Positions 9,341 through 62,887 of a stretch of DNA of 64,000 nucleotides are shown here, one piece after another. Position 1 is the first letter of the stretch. Every line of letters starts with the position of its first letter. A program made the position numbers and the translations under genes. Source of the DNA: Spirochaetota bacterium (GTDB lineage: Bacteria > Spirochaetota > UBA4802 > JAFGJZ01); the NCBI GenBank assembly GCA_029554345.1, contig JAKPJF010000053.1:1-64000 (forward strand), written 5' to 3'. Under the pieces are notes generated by a model. It saw only the letters and a program-made list of their open reading frames with translations. It was not told the origin of the DNA and made no database searches.

Positions 9341-9368
9341 AAAAAAGCCGGGGCAACCCGGCTTTTTT
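9341..9368 (+). terminator. Intrinsic terminator of groESL
   Basis: A perfect 12-bp stem (9341-9352 with 9357-9368) is capped by a GCAA tetraloop, and the 3' arm ends in six Ts. The A-run at the 5' side makes it usable in both directions, so it may also stop the convergent Nif11 gene. Confidence 0.9.
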
Positions 9369-9408
9369 ATTTACTGAAGAATAATAATTTTAAAAATAAT
9401 TAAATCAC

Positions 9409-9654
9409 TCATACAGCCGCAGAAAGGTTCCACCATAACTTGAATTCTTTCACGGCATTTGCAGCCTCCTCATTAGGACATTTTAAAAGAACTACCCTAT
9501 AAGCATCATCAAACTCATACTCATTAAAATCAAAGGAATGAAGCTTAAGAACATATGACAAAGCTTCTGCGTCTTCCGCTTCATTTATCATGTCGCGGAG
9601 TATCCTGTCTTTCATTGCACGCATTATAAATTTTTCAGCCGAATCAATACTCAT
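9409..9654 (-). CDS. Nif11-domain protein
   Basis: The start is set at ATG 9654 because AAGGAG lies upstream and the Nif11-like domain begins there (MSIDSAEKFIMRA). The 81-residue product matches the Nif11 pattern: a helical first half with DRILRDMINEAEDAE, then the family's G/S-FDF-x3-E-F block as HSFDFNEYEFDDAY at about residues 39-52. Nif11 domains occur in nitrogen-fixation loci and as leader regions of ribosomally made peptides. Here there is no double-glycine cleavage site, and the C-terminal half has a single Cys and two Trp. It overlaps the upstream Cys-cluster HTH gene by 11 bases, so the two act together. Function unknown. Confidence 0.75.
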   Translation of the reverse strand: MSIDSAEKFIMRAMKDRILRDMINEAEDAEALSYVLKLHSFDFNEYEFDDAYRVVLLKCPNEEAANAVKEFKLWWNLSAAV

Positions 9655-9916
9655 CTGAAGTTCTCCTTTCCAAAAGCGGTATAATGATACTTTCACCGGA
9701 AATAACAGTTTCAGAATCATTGCATTTATCTGAACATAAAGAACAAGAAGATGAGCAAGCAGAACCGCCGATACGTATAAATCCCTCATCTTTAAGCCGC
9801 TTAACCAATTCAATTACGACAAGAATTGGTACTTCAGTTGCTTCAGCAATGTTTAATGCCGAAACGGTTCTTTTTGAAGTCAGATATTCTTTAATCACTA
9901 AATAATTGTTTTTCAT
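9644..9916 (-). CDS. Small winged-helix protein with C-terminal cysteine cluster
   Basis: This 90-residue protein has a winged-helix-like N-terminal half (KEYLTSKRTVSALNIAEATE then VVIELVKRLKDEGFIRI) followed by a compact cysteine motif, Cys54-x3-Cys58-x2-Cys61-x3-Cys65, inside SACSSSCSLCSDKC. The arrangement resembles FeoC and other small Fe-S winged-helix regulators, so iron-, redox- or oxygen-sensing is plausible but not shown. No feoAB genes are nearby. It is translationally coupled to the Nif11-domain gene. A perfect FliA-type -10 octamer lies about 125 bases upstream on the same strand. Confidence 0.72.
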   Translation of the reverse strand: MKNNYLVIKEYLTSKRTVSALNIAEATEVPILVVIELVKRLKDEGFIRIGGSACSSSCSLCSDKCNDSETVISGESIIIPLLERRTSDEY

Positions 9917-10040
9917 AACTATAGATAATAGATGCTGTAACTAATTGTCAAGTTTGAGCTTTACGATTATCCTCGATAAAGAGATATTTTACATTTCCGT
10001 AATCACGTTAACTTTTTCTGGTCATTCCGAAAACGATATC

Positions 10041-10048
10041 TTATCGGC
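10041..10048 (-). promoter_or_regulatory. Possible FliA-type -10 element upstream of the Cys-cluster HTH gene
   Basis: The minus strand reads GCCGATAA here, identical to the sigma28 (FliA) -10 consensus. No convincing -35 lies 11 bases upstream of it. The 239-base region between 9917 and 10155 holds no gene. Confidence 0.3.
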
Positions 10049-60142: not shown

Positions 60143-62887
60143 ATGAATCCGGTTATAGCTAAAAACAGAGAAAATTTCTTAAAATACAATCAGATAAAAT
60201 TCGAACGTTTTCAGCAGCTTCTGCCGAATCAGAACGTACGGAAAACAATCAACCTTCTGCCGCTGTTACTATCCGTCAACCATCAAAAAGTTCCCGGTCA
60301 TGTTTCCGGCGAATGCGCCATGGGCGTGTGTTCTGCTCTTATAGATGATGAAACAAAACGTTTTGCGGCCGGGAAATTTACCGGGGTTCAGTTTTCAATT
60401 TCGGTTTCCGATCCATTTGTTCAGATGATTGCTGTAATCGGCAGCGTCGGAACTATTGCATATAATAAAAAATCAGACTTCGACTATTGGATATGTGTTG
60501 ATCCCTCCCAGACTACACCGGAAAAATATTCAAATTTCAGAAAAAAAATCAATTTAATTCAAAAATGGCTCGAATCGGAAACCGGTGTATCTATTCATCT
60601 TTTTGTTAATGATGTCCGCGCACTTAAAAAAAATATATTCGATGAAGACGAGGATGAAGCTTTCGGATCAACAATGGGTGCATTGTTAAAAGATGAATTT
60701 TTCAGAAGCTCAATAATCACAAGCGGGAAAGTTCCGTTTTGGTGGGTAGTTCCGGTAACTGCTAAAAACGAGGAGTATGATGCGCTTTATGCATCATTAC
60801 CTGATACAGAAAAGAAGAATGATTTTGTAGATATCGGCAATCTTTACAGAATATCTAAAGAAGATTTTCTGGGTGCAGCCCTTTTTCAAATGGTTAAATC
60901 TCTTGGTAATCCTTTTAAATCAATATTGAAACTGGGTGTATTGAACAAATATCTGTTTGATAACGCCAATGCCCCTCTTTTAAGTCAGAAAATTAAATAT
61001 CTTATACAACAGGGCAACTTCTCAAATACCATTCTTGACTCATATCTGATGATGTTCACTGAAGTTTCTGATTACTATAAACGAAGCGGCGCGAATGACA
61101 ATCTGCTTCTGATATTAAAAATGAATCTTTATTTAAAAATAAGCCCGCAGCTTTCAAAATATATTGGTGTTAGGGGAATATCAAACATACCGTACAGAGT
61201 AGCCGAAATGCTGCGTTATGCAAAACTCTGGCAGTGGGATATTTCTTTTATCCGTGATTTGGACAATTTTGATAACTGGGACTTCAATAAAGTTATGAAA
61301 TTCTGGGATCAAGTTCAGCGTTTCATGCTTATGAGTTATCAGAAAATTTCTAATGAATTTCCAAATATTGATTTAAGTAAAAAAATATCAGATTCCGACT
61401 TTAAACTTCTCAGAAGAAAAATCCGGAGTCATTATCTCAGATCGGAAGATAAAGTTGAACAGTTCATCTCTTTTAAAGAAACAGTTTCAGAATCTCTTCT
61501 CTCAATAGAACCTGTTATGGACGGTATTAAATCAAGCGGATGGAAACTTTTCAAAAAAGCAGTAAACGAATCTGGTTCATCAACGAATGTTCTTCTTAAA
61601 ACTGAAAAAAATCTCATAAATCTTGCAGCATGGGCAGTATTAAATAAAATTTACGATCCGCGTTATTCAAGAATTAATGTTGAAAGCGGATATCAAAGAT
61701 TCAGCAAAAACAGTTCCGTTGATTTTATGAACACTCTCTCGGATTTTTTTACTGAAGAAAGAATGAAAATAAAAAATAAATTCATTCTTAAAGAAATGTT
61801 TTCAACTCTCAATTTCATTGTAATGGATTTCGGACTTGAGTCCAGTGATTCAATAAAGACTCTTCATCACATTATGCATACTTCATGGGGCGAATCATTT
61901 GTTAAAGAGTATCCTTTTGACATCGGAATAGGTACAATTCTTGTTTCAATCGTCAGAGACGGCATAATGATGAAAAAGGGCTTCGATGAATTCTGTTCTT
62001 TCAGCGCTCCCGAGACACACAAAAAACCGTACAAAGATATCATGCTTTTATATAAAGACAGCTATAACTTCATTGTCAGTTCCCCTGAAGATAAACCGCT
62101 TAGATTCGTTTCAAAAGCCGGAATAAGCTATGTGCTGATTCTACGTGACGGCAACCAGGTTGAAGCGGAACTTCATCCTAACATGATGAGATTATTTTCT
62201 GCAATAACTTTAAAGCCTGGGAAAGCTGCATCTTATAAATTTTACAACTCGGAGGAAAGCGGACTTGATTCTCTTGATCTTGCATACCAAAACGCCGCTC
62301 CTCAGACAATATCAATTTTTTATGAGACTAAATCTGATTTCATTTTCGCGTATGTAGTTAATGAAGTCGGAAACCTTTTTATTTTCATAAAACCTAAATC
62401 TCTGGAGGAAAATTTTCTTGCCCAACTTTTCATTTTCTCAAAAAATTCATTAGAAAAAGTACGCGAATTAAATAAATTTACACCGATCAGATCCGATGCC
62501 ATGAACATCAAAATGATTACACGGGACAGGCTCGGAAAAATAACCTTCGTTGATAAAACCGAAAATACTTCGAATTTATATTTCGGGAAATATTCTAAAA
62601 ATTCGGCTTACTCAGTATTGATAAATAAAAAGATGGGAAATGAACCTTTTTACAGTATAAAATTTCCGGACGGAATTGAATCAGGACTAATGGAAGCGGA
62701 TCAGATGTATTCGGTCGCAGATAAAATACATGCACTTAAGATTTCTGGATCAAAAATAAGCAACCTCATCTGCGAAATTGACTATACGGGCATTGAATCA
62801 GATAATCAAATTACAACATCAACATTTTTCGCAGATAAGTTTTCTATCGAAATGAACGTGGACAAATTCACTAAAAGCGGCGTTTAA
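60143..62887 (+). CDS. Class I adenylate cyclase
   Basis: The 914-residue protein follows enterobacterial CyaA over its length. The N-terminal catalytic half has LLPLLLSVNHQKVPGHVSG, the nucleotidyltransferase motif GSVGTIAYNKKSDFDYWIC (CyaA: GSTSSVGQSCSSDLDIWVC), and GSTMGALLKDEFFRSSI followed by the FWWVVPV segment. The C-terminal half should be the regulatory region. The glycine-serine and the two aspartates of the active site are kept, so ATP-to-cAMP activity is likely. The start has GTCGGGGGA upstream. The last 4 bases overlap the convergent coiled-coil gene. CyaA proper has about 848 residues. Confidence 0.85.
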   Translation: MNPVIAKNRENFLKYNQIKFERFQQLLPNQNVRKTINLLPLLLSVNHQKVPGHVSGECAMGVCSALIDDETKRFAAGKFTGVQFSISVSDPFVQMIAVIGSVGTIAYNKKSDFDYWICVDPSQTTPEKYSNFRKKINLIQKWLESETGVSIHLFVNDVRALKKNIFDEDEDEAFGSTMGALLKDEFFRSSIITSGKVPFWWVVPVTAKNEEYDALYASLPDTEKKNDFVDIGNLYRISKEDFLGAALFQMVKSLGNPFKSILKLGVLNKYLFDNANAPLLSQKIKYLIQQGNFSNTILDSYLMMFTEVSDYYKRSGANDNLLLILKMNLYLKISPQLSKYIGVRGISNIPYRVAEMLRYAKLWQWDISFIRDLDNFDNWDFNKVMKFWDQVQRFMLMSYQKISNEFPNIDLSKKISDSDFKLLRRKIRSHYLRSEDKVEQFISFKETVSESLLSIEPVMDGIKSSGWKLFKKAVNESGSSTNVLLKTEKNLINLAAWAVLNKIYDPRYSRINVESGYQRFSKNSSVDFMNTLSDFFTEERMKIKNKFILKEMFSTLNFIVMDFGLESSDSIKTLHHIMHTSWGESFVKEYPFDIGIGTILVSIVRDGIMMKKGFDEFCSFSAPETHKKPYKDIMLLYKDSYNFIVSSPEDKPLRFVSKAGISYVLILRDGNQVEAELHPNMMRLFSAITLKPGKAASYKFYNSEESGLDSLDLAYQNAAPQTISIFYETKSDFIFAYVVNEVGNLFIFIKPKSLEENFLAQLFIFSKNSLEKVRELNKFTPIRSDAMNIKMITRDRLGKITFVDKTENTSNLYFGKYSKNSAYSVLINKKMGNEPFYSIKFPDGIESGLMEADQMYSVADKIHALKISGSKISNLICEIDYTGIESDNQITTSTFFADKFSIEMNVDKFTKSGV

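Follow-up and report, generated by a model that had tools for sequence, protein, structure and literature searches.

Overlapping genes for a Nif11-domain protein and a cysteine-cluster protein in a Spirochaetota bacterium: a possible split accessory unit of nitrogen fixation

Two small overlapping genes of a Spirochaetota bacterium encode a Nif11-domain protein and an HTH-like protein with a C-terminal cluster of four cysteines. In our opinion, the chances are about even that the pair is a nitrogen-fixation accessory unit, i.e., a split form of the Nif11-Cys protein of related genomes, probably serving iron or redox sensing for NifA or nitrogenase. The link of the pair and of long-form Nif11 to nif genes is itself well supported. 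The features of the pair are given below; the window is the whole analysed stretch of 64,000 nucleotides.

9342-9369: bidirectional terminator-like hairpin between the convergent groEL and Nif11 genes (read from the sequence)
9409-9654, minus strand: Nif11-domain protein, 81 aa (open reading frame with a match to Pfam PF07862)
9644-9916, minus strand: HTH-like protein with a C-terminal Cys cluster, 90 aa (FeoC-like order of parts)
9644-9654, minus strand: gene overlap of 11 bases (kept in the congener)
9662-9669, minus strand: Shine-Dalgarno-like AAAGGAGA ahead of the Nif11 start (read from the sequence)
9722-9757, minus strand: Cx3Cx2Cx3C cluster formed by residues 54-65, probably a site for Fe-S or metal (the congener has all four Cys; comparable clusters on the Nif11 C-termini of relatives)
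9946-9951, minus strand: TTGACA hexamer, sigma70 -35-like (the same in the congener, with little conservation at -10)
9990-10001, minus strand: nif-type palindrome TACGGAAATGTA (TACR-N4-YGTA; one of the three TACRNAAATGTA sites of the assembly, of which another is upstream of nifH)

The pair is convergent with groEL and divergent from fliD, and the DNA from its 5' end to position 10048 is an upstream region rather than a gene. As far as can be judged from the arrangement, the overlap implies translational coupling of the two genes. The Shine-Dalgarno sequence of the Nif11 gene is a good match and lies within the upstream HTH gene; none was read at the start of the HTH gene. An earlier sequence-only reading proposed two small genes with an 11-base overlap, and these proved to be real: both genes, their order and the overlap recur in a congener (G001, a Spirochaetes metagenome bin that includes GenBank contig JAKJGA010000083.1), and the cysteines stressed in that reading are retained in this close relative (4/4). 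The Nif11 protein is 91% identical in the congener. Judged by dN/dS against the congener (0.05 for Nif11 and 0.19 for HTH, vs 0.03 for GroEL), both genes are under purifying selection and are not chance open reading frames. Elsewhere in the window, a large class I adenylate cyclase-like protein (60143-62887, plus strand) and several cyclic-nucleotide-binding-like proteins were read by eye only.

The cysteines of the 90-aa protein follow the pattern C54-x3-C58-x2-C61-x3-C65. The sequence-only reading described a winged helix followed by a cysteine cluster; the cluster is indeed present and is of the FeoC type, and the helix-turn-helix is suggested only by sub-threshold profile matches (NirDL-like HTH, E=0.0096; HTH_24, 0.08; FeoC, 0.2); we regard a winged helix as likely. 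The cluster is a probable Fe-S or metal site. A comparably spaced cluster arose in 9 of 20,000 shuffled versions of the protein and in none of the 63 non-overlapping open reading frames of at least 60 aa in the window, a set from which the small HTH gene itself was displaced. AlphaFold2 gave no usable structure (pLDDT 45 from a two-sequence alignment), and a PDB sequence search with the protein returned nothing below E=0.68.

The order of parts in the 90-aa protein may be that of FeoC (PF09012), a small HTH-like domain followed by a four-Cys cluster, and the two align collinearly: hhalign against E. coli FeoC (a sequence with one residue different from PDB 1xn7) covers residues 9-63, cysteines included, with E=0.005 in a single comparison and a probability of only 7%. 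The differences are that the protein misses the Pfam gathering threshold for FeoC (12.3 vs 21 bits), has 3-2-3 instead of 4-2-5 spacing of the cysteines, has a longer C-terminal tail, and is encoded with a Nif11 partner next to groEL and fliD, not feoAB. FeoC of E. coli carries its Cx4Cx2Cx5C cysteines and holds a [4Fe-4S] cluster under anaerobic conditions; it has not been demonstrated to be a regulator, and proteins of the FeoC type do not necessarily act on DNA (PMC8749426). As FeoC illustrates, such a cluster on a small HTH protein does not by itself imply a DNA regulator.

By gene content, the host is diazotrophic (nifHDKENB present). Another contig of the same genome (C32) carries modABC divergent from nifH-nifI1-nifI2-nifD-nifK-nifE-nifN-nifB, as well as genes for a thioredoxin-like ferredoxin, a HEPN-like protein and a GNAT protein, nifV, and nifA, of which the contig ends after the 5' part; nifB of this genome (G000) was inferred from its end and position over two stretches and is whole in G001. 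No nif, feo or RiPP genes are apparent by eye in the list of open reading frames of the window. The earlier remark that no nif, feo or peptide-maturation gene is nearby thus holds for the window, by eye, but fails as a sign of detachment considering the complete nif cluster on C32. The pair as a substitute for NifA in the genus was rejected, since the nif contig of each of the two species ends in a nifA fragment. A HEPN-like protein of about 140 aa with no Pfam match is encoded in the nif clusters of at least 12 spirochaete genomes, usually just before nifV (e.g., L054:623-1054(+); L060:2065-2478(-); L058:13621-14019(+)), and a GNAT acetyltransferase gene adjoins nifV, nif11 or nifA in several genera (L054:2428-2994(+), L058:15487-16107(-), L144-L150).

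The association with nif extends to other genomes. By long-form Nif11 we mean the Nif11 domain with a two-helix “LWWN” extension; it was sought with a profile built from three Nif11 proteins (E<1e-4) in 393 genomes of the phylum. It is found in six of them, and these all belong to the 47 genomes that are nif-positive (Fisher test, 2.2e-6 with genomes and 6e-5 with genera as units; approximate owing to relatedness). The HTH protein occurs, among the same 393 genomes, in the congener G001 only (one genus, two genomes). In the sister genus (G002, G003), nif genes are present but Nif11 was not detected; hence, the unit is dispensable. Some matches were discarded: the Pfam Nif11 matches in G036, G039, G040 and G042, where those inspected (L007, L010) are about 22 residues in a lipoprotein; the weak matches in G041 and G350, which are not the long form; and weak matches of the HTH protein in other genomes, which are broken frames or long open reading frames. 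A tblastn search of plasmids with two Nif11 forms gave no match. The survey is essentially of Spirochaetota, in draft genomes, and the distribution outside this phylum is under-sampled.

In one genus (eight genomes), nif11 with a Cys tail directly follows nifA; the two genes overlap by 14 bp in five of the eight (G366, G500, G502, G504, G506) and are separated by at most 10 bp in G501, G503 and G510. Structural nif genes are on the same contig in 6/8 of these genomes; the stretches read in G501 and G502 contain no nif structural gene, and nifA, nif11 and GNAT are alone there among the genes sought. In G374, G393, G453 and G471, nif11-Cys is a stand-alone gene whose start is preceded at 40-44 bp by a sigma54 promoter, and in G476 nif11 is the last gene of a modABC operon (among these five genomes, the nif status was checked in G374 only). 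The genus with the nifA-nif11 order also has a second Nif11 paralogue with an acidic tail instead of cysteines and a conserved non-nif context (L152, L153, L154).

Nif-linked Nif11 genes are known from proteobacteria: the gene of Bradyrhizobium (DOA9) is RpoN-dependent and has a sigma54 site (PMC13207237), and that of Pseudomonas stutzeri (PST_1344) lies between nif and modCBA (PMC11332353). Common to these and our case are the Nif11 domain and a link to nif/mod genes or sigma54; the pair differs in having the Cys cluster on an HTH protein of its own, encoded by an overlapping gene, and a promoter that is not of the sigma54 type. The open literature searched contained no description of a Nif11 that is coupled to nifA or has a Cys tail, and the pair is not an already named unit, in agreement with the sequence-only reading, which could not name it.

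What recurs in nearly all cases of long-form Nif11 is the Cys cluster, either fused to Nif11 or on a neighbour. A C-terminal cluster is present on the long-form Nif11 of 13 Spirochaetota genomes and of Desulfosarcina cetonica, most commonly with the spacing Cx4Cx2Cx(2-5)C, which is close to Cx4Cx2Cx5C of FeoC. Where Nif11 is tailless, the cluster is usually borne by the neighbour: the HTH protein in the genus of the window, and in G059 a NifX-like protein encoded between nifV and nif11 (L057:9212-9613(-); C-terminal CTSNCNKCSSQSC cluster; only a weak match to Nitro_FeMo-Co). The exception is G018, in which nif11 shares 4 bp with the gene of a HEPN-like protein, at a distance from the nif cluster, and no Cys cluster was seen. 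Parts that are fused in some genomes and encoded by separate neighbouring genes elsewhere typically belong to proteins acting together. Common descent of the Cys segment of the HTH protein and the Nif11 tails cannot be proven from the sequences, because the segments are short, Ser/Gly-rich and variably spaced. The same pair, HTH and Nif11 genes together, was found in the congener only, and relatives of Nif11 are next to other partners. Variable partners, which the sequence-only reading would take as a refutation, do occur in the literal sense: Nif11 is accompanied by the HTH protein, a NifX-like or HEPN-like protein, NifA, or none.

These neighbours also allow a different explanation, namely, that Nif11 and the Cys cluster carry or hold Fe-S or FeMo-co precursors in nitrogenase assembly, with the HTH domain as a scaffold only. 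That action on DNA is not a requirement for FeoC-type proteins (PMC8749426) agrees with it. So do the position of the cluster on a NifX-like protein beside Nif11 and nifV in G059 and the modABC-nif11 operon in G476. However, the commonest neighbour of nif11 is the activator gene nifA and not an assembly gene, and FeMo-co carriers are usually encoded in the nifENX operon. We consider a role as such a trafficking helper possible but rather doubtful.

The region upstream of the pair provides another connection with nif. Palindromes were first spotted by eye, TACAGAAATGTA ahead of nifH and TACGGAAATGTA ahead of the pair. The 3.03-Mb assembly has three TACRNAAATGTA sites: one precedes the pair, one precedes nifH, and the third falls within an open reading frame; the three sites of the congener are placed in the same way. 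A reversed control pattern gave five sites, so the number is not raised and it is the positions that count; the chance of TACRNAAATGTA in one 239-bp region is about 3e-4. Of 20 genomes, 8 have the looser palindrome TACR-N4-YGTA ahead of nifH (10 sites, against an expectation of about 0.5); in the genomes added after the motif was fixed, there were 4 sites where 0.35 would be expected (P=5e-4). The palindrome is likewise found before nif11 (G374 and G393, with two copies in each) and before nifA (G059), about 70-120 bp upstream of the sigma54 site, and fits a NifA-type upstream element. As an observation in its own right, the motif before many Spirochaetota nifH genes (L053, L056, L120, L121, L129, L132, L062, L064) is a candidate NifA upstream element that differs from the proteobacterial TGT-N10-ACA.

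All promoter and motif calls are sequence matches. For the pair, no sigma54 promoter was found (the best score is -3.2 vs 18.9-25.7 for the training sites), and the conserved TTGACA suggests transcription from a sigma70 promoter. By eye, an exact GCCGATAA, the sigma28 -10 consensus, was seen upstream of the pair at 10041-10048 of the window (minus strand) and in the congener, with no matching -35; on the opposite strand, fliD is preceded by TATA-N15-CCGATAA.

Considering that a palindrome is common to the pair and nifH promoters, and that the HTH-like N-terminus is combined with a Cys cluster, one can extend the regulatory unit of the sequence-only reading and propose that the HTH protein binds DNA as an Fe-S repressor or activator, acting on its own operon and on nif genes, and that Nif11 is a co-regulator. 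Yet the palindrome precedes nif genes in G002, G003, G216, G051, G059 and G374, all of which lack the HTH protein, so another factor must bind there; moreover, the HTH assignment is weak and FeoC itself has not been demonstrated as a regulator (PMC8749426). We find this mechanism unlikely. Of the two-gene regulatory unit first described, the real, coupled genes remain, but their detachment from nitrogen fixation does not, in view of the nif cluster in the genome, the relatives beside nifA and the palindrome in common with nifH.

It is still less plausible that the HTH protein is a stray FeoC-like accessory of iron transport beside an unrelated Nif11 gene. The weak similarity to FeoC speaks for this, and against it are the lack of any feo gene seen nearby, the conserved gene order and 11-bp overlap, and the recurrence of Cys clusters alongside Nif11 and nif genes.

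The Nif11 protein itself passes the Pfam gathering threshold (PF07862; 26.6 vs 23.8 bits, residues 1-47). AlphaFold2 predicts a compact five-helix bundle (mean pLDDT 92.9, confident to residue 79), in which the Nif11 domain is followed by a C-terminal two-helix extension ending KEFKLWWNL; Foldseek gave no significant match to this model in the PDB. The block FDF-x3-EF (FDFNEYEF) and the absence of a double glycine, both pointed out earlier, are confirmed in the sequence. Although the protein has a Nif11 domain in common with Nif11-derived RiPP precursors, where it is N-terminal (TIGR03798; Haft et al. 2010, PMC2887384), we reject such a precursor as having virtually no chance, since the leader model cut-off is missed (22.4 vs 32.3 bits), there is no Gly-Gly cleavage site or core peptide, no maturation gene is apparent by eye in the window, and the predicted fold is compact; the doubt of the earlier reading on this point was well placed.

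We therefore return to the nitrogen-fixation accessory unit as the preferred explanation. The 81-aa protein would be the long-form Nif11 of nitrogen-fixing spirochaetes, and in the genus of the window the Fe-S module would have been split off onto a FeoC-like HTH protein encoded by the overlapping upstream gene. The two proteins may form one complex, which would hold an oxygen- or iron-labile cluster and report the iron or redox state to the nif system. The simplest target would be a contact with NifA, as proposed from the nifA-nif11 coupling, or with a nitrogenase assembly protein, as proposed from the NifX-like and mod neighbours. A linker Cys pair is a feature of alpha/beta-proteobacterial NifA (PMC10590331); it is missing from spirochaete NifA, which leaves room for a separate redox sensor. 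We count against this explanation the position of the pair away from the nif cluster, its lack of a sigma54 promoter, the restriction of the HTH protein to one genus, and the sister genus, which does without a detected Nif11.

In a broader and more tentative form, the long-form Nif11 proteins with a FeoC-like Cys cluster in spirochaetes, and in some other anaerobes, might serve NifA as an Fe-S sensor or adaptor partner, a counterpart of NifL, with the module moved to the HTH protein in the genus of the window; we would not call this probable. The role in common with NifL-NifA, Cys-type NifA and cyanobacterial CnfR, all of which exert redox control of nif, would be the coupling of iron or redox state to nif expression. 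No sequence relation to these systems is claimed, and the pair differs from them in consisting of small separate proteins with an inferred role.

Nif11 owes its name to nitrogen fixation, yet no function has been assigned to it other than in RiPP leaders (PMC2887384). The nifA-nif11 order, the recurrent FeoC-like Cys cluster, the sigma54 promoters of relatives and the split form reported here would give it a concrete and testable role: in anaerobic nitrogen fixers with a NifA devoid of the known redox cysteines, it would sense iron or redox state, or handle clusters, on behalf of NifA or nitrogenase.
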